Below, one piece after another: positions 1 to 23,779 of a DNA stretch of 24,748 bases. The stretch covers positions 1 to 24,748 of the IMG/VR virus record IMGVR_UViG_3300042154_000247. One strand, written 5' to 3'. The position numbers and the translations under genes were made by a program. Position 1 is the stretch's first letter. The number at the start of each line of letters is the position of its first letter. The notes below the pieces were generated by a model, which was not told the DNA's origin, searched no databases, and saw only the letters and a list, made by a program, of their open reading frames with translations. This DNA comes from a virus.

Positions 1-76
1 CGCGTGCATATCGTCGCACCTGGGCAGCTGTCCAGGGGACAGGGCCACCTGGTGGGGGGAATGGCCAGGTTTTCAT
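1..76 (-). CDS. Partial hypothetical phage protein (N-terminus only)
   Basis: The minus-strand ATG at 76-74 overlaps the stop of the upstream 83-aa gene as ATGA, the junction type used elsewhere in this operon. The 25 visible residues begin MKTWPFPPPGGPVPWTAAQV and stay open to the window edge. The proline-rich start followed by a short polar helix looks like small proteins seen in many phage accessory operons, but I cannot name a family. No function is assigned. The gene is truncated by the window, not visibly broken. Confidence 0.55.
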   Translation of the reverse strand, partial: MKTWPFPPPGGPVPWTAAQVRRYAR

Positions 77-324
77 TTGGTCAGCTTCTCTGCGCGGGTT
101 ACATCCTGGATCTGTGCGAGTGCTTCGAGTGCTGCCCCTCTACGCTGTCGGGTGTTCATTGCAGCGCTGTCGCTGTCGGCTATCGCCACCAGGGCAGCGG
201 TGGCCTGTCCCAGGGCACGCTGCAGATCAGCGATACGGGCAAACTGTCGGGCAGTGCCGGTGAACCCCTCAGAGTAGGCCAGGGCTTCGGCTTCGGTGGC
301 GGTCAGGTTTTCAAGACAGATCAT
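73..324 (-). CDS. Hypothetical 83-aa helical protein
   Basis: This is an 83-aa Ala/Gln/Glu-rich protein with no cysteines, no membrane segment and an almost wholly helical look (for example LTATEAEALAYSEGFTGTAR and MNTRQRRGAALEALAQIQD). Its start overlaps the stop of the upstream 57-aa gene as ATGA (321-324), and its stop overlaps the next gene the same way (73-76), so it is probably translated by coupling within the leftward operon. I do not recognise the family. The ATGA junctions on both sides are the main evidence that it is real, because an open frame also exists on the opposite strand. Confidence 0.65.
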   Translation of the reverse strand: MICLENLTATEAEALAYSEGFTGTARQFARIADLQRALGQATAALVAIADSDSAAMNTRQRRGAALEALAQIQDVTRAEKLTK

Positions 325-2118: not shown

Positions 2119-2307
2119 TCAGCAAATGAATTCTGGGTGACGCTGGCATTTGATGTCGGCAGCGATGCGAGACAATTCGATTTTGCTTTTGTTGGTGCGT
2201 GCTGAACGGATCAGGGCAGAGATGGCACGGGCACAAAAATCAAGACCCAGGCCAGCGGCGTGCATTGATTTGATTTTCTGGATCTCGCGGGTTTCAGATT
2301 TGTTCAT
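2119..2307 (-). CDS. Hypothetical 62-aa protein, first gene of the leftward operon
   Basis: I take the ATG at 2307-2305 (MNKSETREIQKIKSMHAAGL...) as the start. An upstream in-frame ATG at 2373 would lie ahead of the expected transcription start of the candidate promoter, and the residues between them look like untranslated leader. An AAGAG purine run lies about 8 nt upstream. The 62-aa product is basic and helical with a 'DFCARAISALIRSARTNKSK' stretch and ends in a Cys. It may be a small nucleic-acid-binding protein, but no helix-turn-helix is clear. Being first in the operon and next to the palindrome array makes it a candidate regulator; this is speculation. Confidence 0.55.
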   Translation of the reverse strand: MNKSETREIQKIKSMHAAGLGLDFCARAISALIRSARTNKSKIELSRIAADIKCQRHPEFIC

Positions 2308-2350: not shown

Positions 2351-2381
2351 ATCATAACATAGATCTGACCCAATGGGTCAA
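2351..2381 (-). promoter_or_regulatory. Candidate leftward sigma70 promoter with embedded operator
   Basis: On the minus strand TTGACC (2381-2376) is a 5/6 match to -35 and TATGAT (2356-2351) a 5/6 match to -10, with a slightly long 19-nt spacer. The 15-nt palindrome TGACCCAATGGGTCA (2366-2380) covers the -35 and half the spacer, so a bound protein would block the polymerase. The start would fall near 2344, giving a leader of about 37 nt before the ATG at 2307. Confidence 0.5.
2366..2380. promoter_or_regulatory. 15-nt palindrome in the leftward promoter
   Basis: TGACCCAATGGGTCA is a perfect palindrome around one central base. It overlaps the -35 element and spacer of the leftward promoter candidate, which makes it the best argument that this repeat family is bound by a regulator. 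Confidence 0.65.
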
Positions 2382-2561
2382 CTACTCAACGAATAAATCT
2401 TCTAGGTGCTTTCCCTAACCCTCTGGGTATCCCTTGCTTTACTGCGTCACTTGTGACTTGTGGAAGGTAGAAGGATTCTGGATTTTCAAAACAGCTAGTA
2501 TTACTTTCAAAAATCGTCAATCCTCCCCCTCGCCTGCGCGATGTCACCTGCGTACCACTTG

Positions 2562-2582
2562 ACCCCCTTTTTCGGGGTTTTT
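2562..2582 (+). terminator. Hairpin plus T tract (weak intrinsic terminator, + strand)
   Basis: ACCCC (2562-2566) pairs with GGGGT (2574-2578) across a 7-nt loop, and the run continues as T to 2582. Read on the + strand it resembles a short rho-independent terminator. No + strand gene lies upstream of it in the window, so it may end transcription entering from the left or a short untranslated RNA, or it may be accidental. Confidence 0.35.
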
Positions 2583-2602
2583 CGGGTGTCAGGTATTACT
2601 TT

Positions 2603-2743
2603 TGACCCAGCGGGTCACCAGTCACCCAGTGGGTGAAATGACCCAGCGGGTGACACCTGGTGCGCCCTGATTCCCTGACCCAATGGGCCACAATGACCCA
2701 CTGCACCACCTAACCCAGCGGGTTGACCTAGTACGCTGGGTCA
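2603..2743. repeat. Ladder of interrupted palindromes, ~18-bp pitch
   Basis: Sites with core ACCC-N3-GGGT start at 2603 (TGACCCAGCGGGTCA), 2622 (TCACCCAGTGGGTGA), 2639 (TGACCCAGCGGGTGA), 2676 (TGACCCAATGGGCCA), 2694 (right arm degenerate) and 2711 (TAACCCAGCGGGTTG). A right half-site follows at 2729-2743. Start-to-start steps are 19, 17, 37, 18, 17 and 18 nt; the empty slot at about 2657 holds CACCTGGTGC instead. Outlying copies lie at 2366, 2416 and 2901. The regular spacing argues for protein binding in a phased array. Confidence 0.8.
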
Positions 2744-2758
2744 CCTGGTGGCGCTGCC

Positions 2759-2804
2759 CTGGTGCCGCGCTGCGCTGATCCGGTGGTGCTGGTGCCGCGA
2801 TGCG
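2759..2804. repeat. GC-rich 16-bp direct repeat, 30-bp period
   Basis: CTGGTGCCGCGCTGCG (2759-2774) recurs as CTGGTGCCGCGATGCG (2789-2804) with one mismatch. It lies between the palindrome ladder and the AT-rich tract upstream of the small terminase gene. No coding function is apparent. Confidence 0.6.
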
Positions 2805-2900
2805 GTGGTGCCCGAGGCCACCCGGGCAGGGCCGACGAGGCCAGGGTCACGGCTACGGAGGGGCCGCGAACAATTTTATTTTTTAAATCTTTTATCCAAA

Positions 2901-2915
2901 TGACCCAGCGGGTTC
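2901..2915. promoter_or_regulatory. Isolated palindrome copy next to the small terminase gene
   Basis: TGACCCAGCGGGTTC matches the ladder consensus at 13 of 15 positions and lies immediately after an AT-rich tract, 71 nt before the terS start. It could be an operator for a rightward transcript or part of a terminase recognition site. Confidence 0.55.
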
Positions 2916-2985
2916 ACATACTTCTCAGTACCACTTGCCACACGTATTTCCATTTCCCCAAGCATGTGATAGCATCAACACCACT

Positions 2986-3537
2986 ATGGACACATCACAA
3001 CTTGATCCCGTAGGCGCAGATGTCACACCAAGTGCCAACCTCGAACTACCAGACTGGCTAGACCCTGCGCCCCGCACCTTGGCCAAATCCCCGCCCGAGG
3101 TGAAGTCCCTCGTACTGGCGCAGTACGAACACATATTCATGCGAGTCATCGACGAGATTGCCCACGGGCAGTCTTTGTCCCAGGTGCTGCGTGACGACCA
3201 GCGGGACATCGACTACAACGACTTCTACCGGTGGATCAAGAAAGACCCCGTTCGCAAGCAGCTGTTTGATGAAGCCCAGGAGATGCGCACCGAGTTCATG
3301 GCTGGCGAGATCATTGAGATTGCCGATGCCGATGACACGTTGGAGGATGTGAACCGGTCTAAGCTCAAGATCGACACGCGCAAATGGTTGATGGGTGCCC
3401 ACAACAAGAAGAAGTACGGTGCGACGACCAACATCGAGATGACTGGTGGAATTTCCATCTTGGGTGCCCTGGCTGCGGCCAATGCCCGAGTAATTGACAT
3501 GGACGATGTGACTGATGTGGAGATGAAAAATGCTTAA
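2986..3537 (+). CDS. terS: Terminase small subunit (Sf6-like)
   Basis: The predicted 183-aa protein starts at ATG 2986 (MDTSQLDPVGADVTPSANLE). An upstream TTG at 2935 is in frame, but the extra residues look non-coding. After a disordered N-terminus, a helical region 'EHIFMRVIDEIAHGQSLSQV' and 'DFYRWIKKDPVRKQLFDEA' resembles the DNA-binding helix-turn-helix of Sf6-type small terminases. The later 'SKLKIDTRKWLMGAHNKKKY' is the family's typical signature before the C-terminal tail that contacts TerL. The role is to recognise viral DNA and load the TerL motor. It lies directly before the large subunit and next to the palindrome array. No clear Shine-Dalgarno precedes the start, which makes the exact start uncertain. 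Confidence 0.85.
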   Translation: MDTSQLDPVGADVTPSANLELPDWLDPAPRTLAKSPPEVKSLVLAQYEHIFMRVIDEIAHGQSLSQVLRDDQRDIDYNDFYRWIKKDPVRKQLFDEAQEMRTEFMAGEIIEIADADDTLEDVNRSKLKIDTRKWLMGAHNKKKYGATTNIEMTGGISILGALAAANARVIDMDDVTDVEMKNA

Positions 3538-3601
3538 GATAATTATTCTTTGTCTGGTTGTACTTGTAGCCGTGTGGATCATTGACTGGATGGTCAGCTG
3601 A
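3530..3601 (+). CDS. 23-aa membrane peptide between terminase subunits
   Basis: ATG at 3530 opens a 23-codon frame, MLKIIILCLVVLVAVWIIDW followed by MVS, ending in TGA at 3599-3601. It overlaps the end of terS by 8 nt and its stop overlaps the TerL start as TGATG. A GGAG ribosome site lies about 8 nt upstream. The peptide is almost entirely one hydrophobic span with a Lys at the N-terminus and Asp/Trp near the C-terminus. It could be a real tiny membrane protein or a leader whose main job is to couple TerS and TerL translation. Confidence 0.5.
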   Translation: MLKIIILCLVVLVAVWIIDWMVS

Positions 3602-5133
3602 TGCAGACTACCAAGTTCTCCCCTGAAGAAGAGCAGCAGCTCATGGGCCAGATGTGGAGCAGACATCTGGCAGATGACCCCGAGGCGTTCGTGTTCTTCG
3701 CGTTCCCTTGGGGTCAGGAGAACACCCCGCTGACTAAGTTCAAAGGACCACGGGCCTGGCAGCGCCGGGTGCTGCGTGAGATTCGTGACCACATCAAAGC
3801 GAACCGAGGCCAGCTGGACATGAACGCGCTGAGAAAGGCGATCAGCTCGGGCCGGGGGATCGGGAAGTCAGCACTGGTGAGCTGGCTCATCTTGTGGATG
3901 CTGAGTACCCGGATTGGCTCGTCTGTCATTGTCTCGGCTAACAGTGAGAACCAGTTGCGCACGGTTACCTGGGGTGAGCTGACCAAATGGGCCACCATGA
4001 GCATCAACTCGCATTGGTGGGAGGTGAGCGCCACACAGCTGGTGCCTGCCGCCTGGCTGACTGACCTTGTCGAGCGTGACCTCAAGAAAGGCACCCGGTA
4101 CTGGGCCGCTGAGGGCAAGCTGTGGAGCGAGGAGAACCCCGACTCGTATGCCGGTGTCCACAACCACGACGGGATGATGGTGATCTTTGATGAGGCGTCG
4201 GGCATACCGGACGCGATCTGGAGCGTGGCGGCGGGCTTCTTTACAGAGAAGATTTTGGACAGGTATTGGTTCGCGTTCAGCAACCCACGGCGTAACACCG
4301 GGTACTTCTACGAAGCCATCGAGGGCAACAAGCGGGACTTCTGGGCGTCGGACATCATTGATGCCCGCACGGTGGAGGGCACGGACAAAGGGGTGTACGA
4401 CCAGATCATCGCCGAGTATGGTGAAGACTCGATCCAAGCCAGGGTCGAGGTCTATGGTGAGTTCCCCGCTGCTGGCGAAGACCAGTTTATCTCCCCACTG
4501 GTGGTGGAGGATGCGTTCAAGCGGGAGAAGTACAAGGACATGACCGCACCGGTGGTAATCGGGGTTGACCCGGCCCGTGGCGGCATGGACAGCACCGTGA
4601 TCTTGGTGCGCCAAGGCCGTGACATTGTGGCCATCAAGCGCCTGAAGGGCGAGGACACCATGAGTGTGGTGGGTCACATTATCGACGCCATTGAGGAGTT
4701 CAAGCCTGCGCTGACCGTGATCGACGAGGGTGGCCTGGGCTACGGGATACTTGACAGATTGACTGAGCAGCGGTACAAAGTGCGCGGGGTCAACTTCGGA
4801 TGGAAGTCAAAGAACCCGGCGATGTGGCAAAACAAACGCAGTGAGATGTGGGGTGCGATGCGCGACTGGCTCAAAACCGCCAGCATCCCGCAGGACCGGC
4901 AGCTCAAGAACGACCTGGTTGGTCCGATGCGCAAGTTCAATTCGTCTGGGTCTATTTTGCTTGAGAGCAAAAAGGAAATGAAGTCCCGTGGGTTGGCCTC
5001 GCCAGATGCAGCTGACGCACTGGCAGTGACGTTTGCATTCCCCGTGGCGCACCGTGGGGAGTACAATTCCAGAATCGAGCGTCGCGTAGTTAGCGAACGT
5101 GGGTCAATGACATCTTCTTGGATGGGGTCTTAA
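3601..5133 (+). CDS. terL: Terminase large subunit (packaging ATPase/nuclease)
   Basis: At 510 aa this is full length for a P22/Sf6-type TerL. The N-terminal ATPase shows a phage-type Walker A at residues 82-90 (SSGRGIGKS), a Walker B at 192-198 (MMVIFDE, D197/E198) and the coupling segment '[12 protein letters not shown]' near 223-234. The C-terminal RNase H-like nuclease shows D323 in '[11 protein letters not shown]', D375/E376 in '[11 protein letters not shown]' and the third acidic motif '[13 protein letters not shown]' at 467-479. It drives DNA into the procapsid at the portal vertex and makes the packaging cuts. All expected catalytic acids are present. It starts within the stop of the 23-aa peptide and is followed 1 nt later by the 49-aa gene. 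Confidence 0.96.
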
Positions 5134-21325: not shown

Positions 21326-23779
21326 ATGCCTTTGCAAACTGCGACAAACCCCACCACGGGCGAACGTGTTGCTTTGGTCGGTGACCAATGGCAACCCATT
21401 TCACAATCGGCCACCAACAAGCAGGGCGTAAAGGCTTATCTTGTCGGTGACAAGTGGCTGACTGACGACGGTGCATCGCCTGCCGCCGCGCCTGCTGAAA
21501 GCGGTATACCAGCAGCCCGTGGCGGTCCATCTCCATACGCTGCCGCACCATCAAACCCGATACTCAAGGCGCTGTACTCACCTGTGGTGGGTGCATATCG
21601 TGGGTTGCAGGACATTACCGATGTGGGCATGATTGCAGCCACTGAGGCTTTGGGTATAAAAGGCGCTCGGGAAGAGTCAGCCCGTCAAAAAGCACAATTT
21701 GAACAGCAATACGGTGGTATAGCTGGTGCTGAAGTTGGCCGGGTTGGCGGTCAAATTGTTGGCACATTGCCTGTGGGCGGCGCAATTGCAGCTCCGGTCA
21801 AAGCTGCTGCCAAACTCGCGCCTTCGCTGGCACGCTTTCTGACACCACTGGCTACATCAATTGAGAGCGCTGGGTTTCAGACAGGTTTGAAGCCAGGAAT
21901 CGCAGCGTTGCCTGCCCGTGTTGCGGGTGGTGCAATTACTGGCGGCGTATCCGCTGGTTTGGTCAATCCTGAAGATGCTGCGACAGGTGCAGCAATCGGT
22001 GCAGCAGTTCCTACTGTGGTTGCGCCTATCGTGACCGGTGGTGCAAAGTTTGTTCGCAGACTCGCAGACTTGAAGTCGGCAACATACCTGGATGCTGTTG
22101 AGGGCAAAGGTCAAGATATTGTCAATGCCTTGCGTGACAAGGGAGCCACAATTGTCCCTGGGTCTGCGCCAACTGCTGGTGAGGTTGCATCGACGGCAGG
22201 CAGTGCCAAATTTTCCGCATTCCAAAAGGAAATGTCTCAACTGCCCGGTGTTTCCAGCGAATATGCTGGTGCAGCAGCGCAGTCAAATCAAGCTCGACTG
22301 GCTCAAGAGGCACGGGTGCAGCAGCGTTTCCAAGATGCTGCCTCAAAAGTTCAAGCAAAAATTGACCGTGGTTTGGTCGATGTCAGCCCGTCGGAAGTGG
22401 GCAATACGCTCACCGCTGCCGCAAAAGCCGAGCAACAAGCTGTCAAAACCAATGTGGTTCAGCCCGCATATAAGGCTGCGTTTGATGCTGCTGGCGATGC
22501 CAAGATCGACATTTCCAATGTTGTGTCTGAAGCCGAGCGCATTCTGGACCGTAAGCTGTCATCGTTTGCCACAGAAACCGCACCTGACACGGTTCGCAAA
22601 CTTCGCAGTTTTGCACCCGCTGTACCAGAAGCAGAAGTTGCAACCATTGGAAAAGCCGGGTTCAAAGCAGCCAAGCCGCCTGCGCCACCAGCAGTGCCGC
22701 CACAGGCCACGCTTCAGCAACTGGACGATGTGCGTAAGGCAATCAATGCTGACATTGCCGCTGCCTCGACCAGCAACGCACCTATGGCTGCGACAACGCT
22801 GAAAAATTTGCGCGAGTTGCACACTGCAATTGATGATGCCATCGGCAAAAGCACCACTTTGGCAGATGATGCCAAGGGCTTGTATGCAGATGCCGTGCTT
22901 AAATATCGCACAGAGTATGCCCCTCGGTTTAAAGAAGGCATCAACGCCAACTTGTTCAAGCGCACAAGCCTGGGCGAAGGCCGAATTCGCCCTGAAGATG
23001 TCATCAACCGTTACTTCACACCCAACGGTGAGTCTGAGGCGCGTCAATTCACTCAGTTGTTTGGCAATAACCCAGATGCCTTAAAAGTTGCTCGAGCTGG
23101 CATTGAAGATGTGTACCGTAAAAAAGTTGTGGAAGGTGGGATGTCGCATTCCAACTTCCTCAAAGACTATGGCCGCACAATTGACATCTACGACAACGCA
23201 GGTTTGAATTTGCGTCAGCGATTTGATGTGCTGAACAAGGATGCCGACAGGCTTGCAAAAATTGAAGCTATGGCAAAAGCCAGCGGCAACAAGTTGTCAC
23301 CCCCTCTACCCCCAGGGTCAAATGCCTTGGCTGTAGAAAGACGAATTGGTGAACTGACTCAAGGTTTGGACAATCGTCAACTGACTGCGATCAATTCGGT
23401 TCGTGATGATTTGGCCCGCGAGGCTGAGTACCAGCGCTTGGCTGCTGCCGGTAGCAAGGGCGGTGTGGCGTTTGAAGGCGCAGCCAAAGCAGGTAAAGAA
23501 ACTGGTTTGGCCCCTGCACCATCAATTCTCAGCATGCCGATTACAATCTACAACGCTGTGGTGAAAAAGCTACTTGGCATTGTTGATGACAAATTGGCAA
23601 TGGAGTTGGCCCGCGAGATGTTGAATCCTGCGGTAACTGCTGAATCAATCCAAAAAGCACTGCGTCGGCAGAGTGAGCAAGCAGTGACAAATCAGTTGAC
23701 ACAACGGTTTGCCACTCGAGCTGCACCCGGTTTGGCACAAATGCCTGCTCAAGAAAATCAAAACGCGCTTGTCAAGTAA
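21326..23779 (+). CDS. Large putative internal virion/ejection protein (gp16-position, 817 aa)
   Basis: The 817-aa protein starts with two similar short motifs ('GERVALVGDQWQPI' and 'VKAYLVGDKWLTDD'), probably a small N-terminal repeat. Residues ~130-245 are Gly/Ala/Val-rich with several weakly hydrophobic spans ('VGGQIVGTLPVGGAIAAPVK', 'AATGAAIGAAVPTVVAPIVT') that could insert into membrane. The rest is long helical. Last in the gp7-gp20-gp16 order, it fits the P22 gp16 role of helping DNA cross the inner membrane; no peptidoglycan-cleaving motif is evident. An AAGGA site precedes the ATG. Confidence 0.65.
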   Translation: MPLQTATNPTTGERVALVGDQWQPISQSATNKQGVKAYLVGDKWLTDDGASPAAAPAESGIPAARGGPSPYAAAPSNPILKALYSPVVGAYRGLQDITDVGMIAATEALGIKGAREESARQKAQFEQQYGGIAGAEVGRVGGQIVGTLPVGGAIAAPVKAAAKLAPSLARFLTPLATSIESAGFQTGLKPGIAALPARVAGGAITGGVSAGLVNPEDAATGAAIGAAVPTVVAPIVTGGAKFVRRLADLKSATYLDAVEGKGQDIVNALRDKGATIVPGSAPTAGEVASTAGSAKFSAFQKEMSQLPGVSSEYAGAAAQSNQARLAQEARVQQRFQDAASKVQAKIDRGLVDVSPSEVGNTLTAAAKAEQQAVKTNVVQPAYKAAFDAAGDAKIDISNVVSEAERILDRKLSSFATETAPDTVRKLRSFAPAVPEAEVATIGKAGFKAAKPPAPPAVPPQATLQQLDDVRKAINADIAAASTSNAPMAATTLKNLRELHTAIDDAIGKSTTLADDAKGLYADAVLKYRTEYAPRFKEGINANLFKRTSLGEGRIRPEDVINRYFTPNGESEARQFTQLFGNNPDALKVARAGIEDVYRKKVVEGGMSHSNFLKDYGRTIDIYDNAGLNLRQRFDVLNKDADRLAKIEAMAKASGNKLSPPLPPGSNALAVERRIGELTQGLDNRQLTAINSVRDDLAREAEYQRLAAAGSKGGVAFEGAAKAGKETGLAPAPSILSMPITIYNAVVKKLLGIVDDKLAMELAREMLNPAVTAESIQKALRRQSEQAVTNQLTQRFATRAAPGLAQMPAQENQNALVK

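Follow-up and report, generated by a model that had tools for sequence, protein, structure and literature searches.

The protein-primed Bacillus phage phi29 makes an early protein, p4, that acts at the early promoter and, at the late promoter, occupies DNA upstream of RNA polymerase (PMC11476376). The phi29 A2c/A3 region resembles the locus described here in that its early and late promoters are divergent and flank several sites for one early phage protein, although at our locus the function is predicted. The two systems differ in that p4 is not a helix-turn-helix (HTH) protein of the XRE/MqsA type, and in that the present locus carries 7 to 11 sites whose word changes between clades. A second likeness is to the operators of MqsA, which has a related HTH domain and autorepresses its own operon (PMC5422877, PMC4901048). 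MqsA binds TAACCT-N3-AGGTTA (core ACCT-N3-AGGT) through Asn97/Arg101, a sequence that shares its length, its spacing and the ACC/GGT letters with the palindromes described below (PMC4901048, PMC5422877). In contrast to the MqsA operators, the array here is many-sited, has the word ACCC rather than ACCT and would control phage genes. The candidate regulator, RepC, has no toxin partner or zinc domain that we could see, and the conserved early genes included no MqsR that we noticed.

Mycobacteriophage stoperators also provide many short sites for one phage regulator, but they are asymmetric and scattered genome-wide, whereas the sites here are palindromic and concentrated between two promoters. 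The right operators of lambda and P22 (cI/Cro) and the P2 C regions likewise combine divergent promoters, small HTH repressors and several short palindromes. Unlike in those systems, the promoters here separate early genes from the terminase and structural genes. No integrase or lysogeny module was noticed in an unsystematic look, and the related phage DSL-LC05 has been called lytic in a paper that contains no discussion of its promoters and repressors (PMC10611076). A literature search on early-to-late operator arrays found no matching paper.

We consider it probable, from the comparison of related phage sequences, that the palindromes form a RepC operator array, which would shut off the early promoter and control, probably activate, the late one. 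The DNA analyzed (the window) is a viral record of 24,748 bases from IMG/VR, belonging to a phage with a P22-type portal and an Sf6-type small terminase. Between the leftward small genes and terS, at 2366-2915, it contains seven exact ACCC-N3-GGGT cores, one near-match and two half-sites. The exact cores start at 2368, 2418, 2605, 2624, 2641, 2713 and 2903, and the 15-mers that hold them start at 2366, 2416, 2603, 2622, 2639, 2711 and 2901; elsewhere in the window just one more exact core was found, at 23308. The features are as follows.

73-324, minus strand: last leftward gene in the window (MICLENLTATEAEALAYSEGF...), from the open reading frame list and relative G003
2119-2307, minus strand: first leftward open reading frame (62 aa, MNKSETREIQ...), start of the early operon; from the open reading frame list, with the start codon chosen by comparison with relatives
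2351-2356, minus strand: -10 box TATGAT of the leftward promoter P_L, with extended TG (TGTTATGAT), from a comparative promoter search made without reference to the sites
2366-2380, minus strand: putative operator on P_L (TGACCCAATGGGTCA), exact core
2416-2430, minus strand: distal P_L site (TAACCCTCTGGGTAT), offset 72 from the P_L -10 box
2603-2617, no strand assigned: central array site 1 (TGACCCAGCGGGTCA), exact core
2622-2636, no strand assigned: central array site 2 (TCACCCAGTGGGTGA), exact core
2639-2653, no strand assigned: central array site 3 (TGACCCAGCGGGTGA), exact core
2676-2690, no strand assigned: central array site 4 (TGACCCAATGGGCCA), one core mismatch
2694-2708, no strand assigned: half-site (TGACCCACTGCACCA), three mismatches, all in the right half
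2711-2725, no strand assigned: central array site 5 (TAACCCAGCGGGTTG), exact core
2729-2743, no strand assigned: half-site with a TGGGTCA end, from the sequence
2868-2897, plus strand: AT-rich tract (CGAACAATTTTATTTTTTAAATCTTTTATC) immediately before the P_R operator, conserved in almost every relative
2901-2915, plus strand: putative operator upstream of the terS promoter P_R (TGACCCAGCGGGTTC), core start 67 bp upstream of the -10 box
2967-2975, plus strand: extended -10 box of P_R, TGA-TAGCAT; TANNNT with TG in nearly all relatives
2986-3537, plus strand: terS, small terminase subunit (Sf6-type), first late gene (Pfam PF20901, E 8.3e-20; phrog_1482, E 2.9e-21)
3601-5133, plus strand: terL, large terminase subunit (phrog_2, E 2.7e-45)

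These coordinates bear out the array of interrupted palindromes that a preliminary description of this DNA had reported. Most positions in its list of full sites stand, but the one at 2694 is a half-site only, like 2729-2743, and at 2416 the core fits while the TGA/TCA flanks do not; the site at 2676 (ACCCAATGGGC) has one mismatch in the core. The steps of 17 to 19 nucleotides, or double that, which it had noted are also present, since from 2603 to 2729 the successive steps are 19, 17, 37, 18, 17 and 18.

The window has 18 cores with at most one mismatch, where 8.1 are expected and no more than 13 turned up in any of 100 shuffles, and the longer word TGACCCARYGGGT occurs 4 times against 0.00 expected. 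Across 16 related genomes (566 kb), 105 of the 124 exact cores lie within 1.3 kb upstream of terS, while a reversed control word in the same genomes was found twice inside that region and 8 times outside it. The core is thus far from the random genome-wide frequency that, according to the preliminary description, would have spoken against a function, as would loss of the array from relatives that keep the flanking genes; in most such relatives its position is kept. Searches of IMG/VR with TerS and TerL yielded about 145 related loci, and site positions were compared over about 70 relatives. Where enough upstream sequence is available, most loci carry 4 to 11 cores within the 1000 bases that precede terS, and few in other places. 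The same layout is found in DSL-LC05 (OR003940, 37.6 kb), even though its TerS is only 48% identical. Neighbor spacings inside the central cluster fall at 16-20, 24-29, 32-42 and 46-51, with peaks at 18, 20 and 28, and form no clean multiples. In a TerL scan of bacterial whole genomes, the only close relatives were on short MAG contigs that appear to derive from phages.

Two distant TerL relatives (G015 and G016) have no clear array of the ACCC-N3-GGGT type. Two others, G017 (L184/L185) and G018 (L186/L187), have ATTG-N-CAAT palindromes of their own between divergent gene sets; their TerS is also different, and they were left out of the comparison because no RepC homologue was found in them.

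P_L was found in two ways, by aligning the leftmost sites and by searching for the best -35/-10 pair while ignoring the sites, and it is seen in most loci as one promoter when searched without anchoring on the sites. Both promoters are non-canonical in the window itself, as judged by a simple promoter scan. At P_L, which that scan missed, the minus-strand ACCC begins 22 bp upstream of the -10 box and overlaps a -35-like TTGACC (2376-2381), from which the spacer to the -10 box is a non-canonical 19 bp. Transcription would be expected to start near 2344. Among the relatives, the proximal site lies 11 (19 loci), 22 (16 loci, including the window) or 32 (7 loci) bp upstream of the P_L -10 box. In the offset-11 class, the core sits exactly inside the spacer of TTGACA-agcta-ACCCGCTGGGT-TATAAT (TTGACA-16-TATAAT, 19 loci); in the offset-22 class it overlaps the -35 box, and in the offset-32 class it abuts it. 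The distal site is at 69-73 (about 71) in most relatives, whatever the position of the proximal one. As judged from sequence, this arrangement is most naturally read as steric repression of P_L.

In nearly all relatives, a -10 box of the form TANNNT, mostly with TG, lies 9 to 10 nucleotides before the terS ATG, and the terS message would therefore be nearly leaderless. In the window, a weak -35-like TTTCCA (2947-2952) precedes the P_R -10 box with a 17-bp spacer. The site nearest to P_R is found only at 37-41, 47-51, 59-60 or 67-69 bp upstream of the -10 box among the relatives, and a Rayleigh periodogram of these distances, each counted once, peaks at 10.75 bp (p ~0.001). Only a degenerate P_R site is present in the window's nearest relatives (L006, L016, L061 and L065). 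On the TerS tree, the position class changed at least 13 times at P_L and at least 20 times at P_R, part of which could reflect exchange of promoter modules by recombination. Since these many changes land almost only on steps of about 10.5 bp, the sites appear to move only by whole helical turns. The position of the P_R site, off the promoter and on a constant face of the helix, suggests activation, with looping as the main alternative. According to that alternative, which we regard as unlikely, RepC would be a repressor only and would silence both P_L and P_R by looping via the sites at P_L, in the center and at P_R. Looping predicts helical phasing equally well, and the site pairs at P_L do stay in phase. 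It sits less easily with the P_R site, which never overlaps its promoter while the P_L site does, and with the weak P_R boxes (mean 3.95/6 and 3.6/6), as would be expected of an activated promoter, in a comparison that is biased by the choice of the highest-scoring boxes at P_L.

The word of the palindrome has switched in two clades. In the G007/L043-L052 clade it is AGCCA-N-TGGCT, and in the L129/L193-L200 clade it is TCACA-N-TGTGA. Both keep the layout, so that sites are found on the divergent promoters at phased positions in the ACCCA-word phages and in the changed-word clades alike. The AGCCA clade has offsets of 32 at P_L and 49 or 60 at P_R; the TCACA clade has TTGACAATGTGA on the -35 box at P_L (21-22), a distal site at 70-71 and a P_R offset of about 47, counted by eye on the sequence. 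Only two candidate sequence-specific binders are encoded early and conserved in 12/12 compared genomes, the HTH protein RepC and a ribbon-helix-helix (RHH) protein of 65 to 69 aa; TerS, on the late side, is the third candidate. The RepC recognition helix reads PVFTLRKW and variants with the ACCCA word, SVSTLRHW with AGCCA, and TKSALYAW or TRSALYAW with TCACA. By this comparison, RepC is alone among the conserved candidate DNA-binding proteins in tracking the word. The match comprises two clear switches, one per clade, and thus few independent events; in one genome (G014), the RepC helix is very different and the word is still ACCCA. The idea that a single residue (Lys7 to His) sets the word was dropped, because L110 and L113 have His7 yet carry CCCA half-sites.

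It is improbable that the array serves another protein, either the early RHH protein or one that has escaped recognition. RHH proteins typically bind short repeated palindromes, and this one is conserved throughout the compared genomes, but its predicted DNA-contacting strand is uncoupled from the word: KFLTVRLTP is the same in G003 (ACCCA) and G007 (AGCCA), and AFMTVRVT in DSL-LC05 and G008 again occurs with ACCCA. The RHH protein was rejected as the binder on these grounds. TerS was excluded likewise, since its DNA-binding helix does not follow the word; DYNDFYRWIKK is identical in the window and in the AGCCA-clade phages, which have different words, and the helices of DSL-LC05, G013 and G014 differ while the word is the same.

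The preliminary description had judged an origin or pac function as likely as repression, a weighting that finds no support here, as the TerS helix is uncoupled, there is no consistent GC-skew extreme at the array and neither function explains the promoter-fixed positions. That the sites are origin iterons for a replication initiator, with the AT-rich tract at 2868-2897 as the unwinding element, is very improbable. Repeated sites next to such a tract and the replication proteins encoded in the early operon would suit an origin, but no initiator that tracks the word was identified, the helical positions are fixed to promoters and some sites lie within promoter spacers. The GC-skew check that the preliminary description had proposed gave no consistent extreme at the array, the extremes of cumulative skew being scattered in five genomes, which is a weak test for phages. 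Recognition by TerS for headful packaging is the least probable reading, for although the array adjoins terS, the terminase and portal are of P22/Sf6 type and some relatives assemble as circles, consistent with permuted headful genomes, the site positions are locked to two promoters and the TerS helix varies independently of the word. The array region may nonetheless have a secondary use as an origin or pac site.

The RepC operator reading turns on a protein of about 85 to 105 aa that belongs to phrog_2104 (PHROG function: unknown) and whose only annotation is "repressor protein C," in DSL-LC05. The window phage's own RepC would lie beyond the window edge, its presence being suggested by relatives; repC is expected just outside the record because in G003 it sits about 0.3 kb further left of the homologue of the gene at 73-324. 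MqsA is among the best sequence-profile matches of RepC (E 1.7e-4 and E 9.8e-5 against the MqsA HTH profile). The match to PF15731 covers the HTH half only and scores 22.1 bits, below the cut-off of 30, and RepC would thus work like MqsA without being filed as MqsA. The RepC of L050 reaches 30.4 bits with HTH_31 (cut-off 27) and 27.1 with HTH_3 (cut-off 23), which places it in the XRE/Cro-C1 HTH superfamily; window-type RepCs score lower. The predicted structure has a confident five-helix HTH core and a disordered tail, and a Foldseek search with it returned generic HTH folds, all with E above 0.03. P2 C and P22 C2 are among the weak structure and sequence matches. MqsA Asn97 and Arg101 align with RepC helix positions 3 and 7, both among the positions where ACCCA-type and AGCCA-type RepCs have different residues.

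The sites, the promoters, their phasing, the change of word and its tracking by RepC were established by sequence comparison. From these we infer RepC binding, repression of P_L and activation of P_R in the following order. A strong P_L would first drive the leftward operon, comprising repC and the replication genes (operon content from DSL-LC05). RepC, a predicted phage-encoded dimeric HTH regulator with the predicted target word TGACCCARYGGGTCA, would on rising in concentration fill the P_L site, the distal site about 71 bp from the -10 box and the central cluster. RNA polymerase would then be blocked at P_L and early transcription switched off, including that of repC itself, after which the P_R-proximal site would control terS together with the packaging and structural genes that follow it. 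This site is clear of the weak promoter and keeps to one helix face, which would suit contact-mediated activation, compare phi29 p4 at A2c/A3; activation rather than repression at P_R is the least certain step. The suggestion in the preliminary description that one protein binds side by side at a multi-site operator fits well with helically phased sites on two divergent promoters. More tentatively, and with somewhat more doubt than belief, we propose that one early HTH protein on 7 to 11 sites spread over 550 bp forms a single phased nucleoprotein complex that turns the early promoter off and the late one on, and that the word is reprogrammed along with the helix while the sites stay put, giving orthogonal switches built on an MqsA-like domain.

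If correct, the RepC operator reading would assign a function to phrog_2104 and provide a testable early-late switch in freshwater phages of an abundant and mostly uncultured group. Since the positions have moved often in helical phase and the word has changed with the helix, the group amounts to a natural mutational experiment. It would show how one regulator could repress and activate by position, and it would be a source of orthogonal regulator/operator pairs.

Several smaller features were observed at the locus. Two non-palindromic stretches between the distal P_L site and the central cluster, at 2440-2475 (CTTGTGACTTGTGGAAG) and 2500-2560 (TTTCAAAAATCGTCAATCC...GCGCGATGTCACCTGCGTACCAC), look conserved, the AGCCA clade (L050) included. 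In G001, G003, G011 and G012, one exact core, ACCCAGCGGGT, is found roughly 5 kb to the left of terS, close to the region of the primase gene. Just before their start codons (1937-1965 and 2067-2092), leftward small genes have runs of (C/T)GTAAC repeats in their leaders, with extra copies in some relatives (in L025, upstream of the first leftward gene). At the expected 5' end of the P_L transcript, the minus strand of 2323-2345 contains a short stem-loop, CATGGCAACATCGCCATG, whose sequence varies among relatives while the pairing seems to be kept (L007, CCGGaacaaaaCCGG; L016, CTGCACaacatcGTGCAG).
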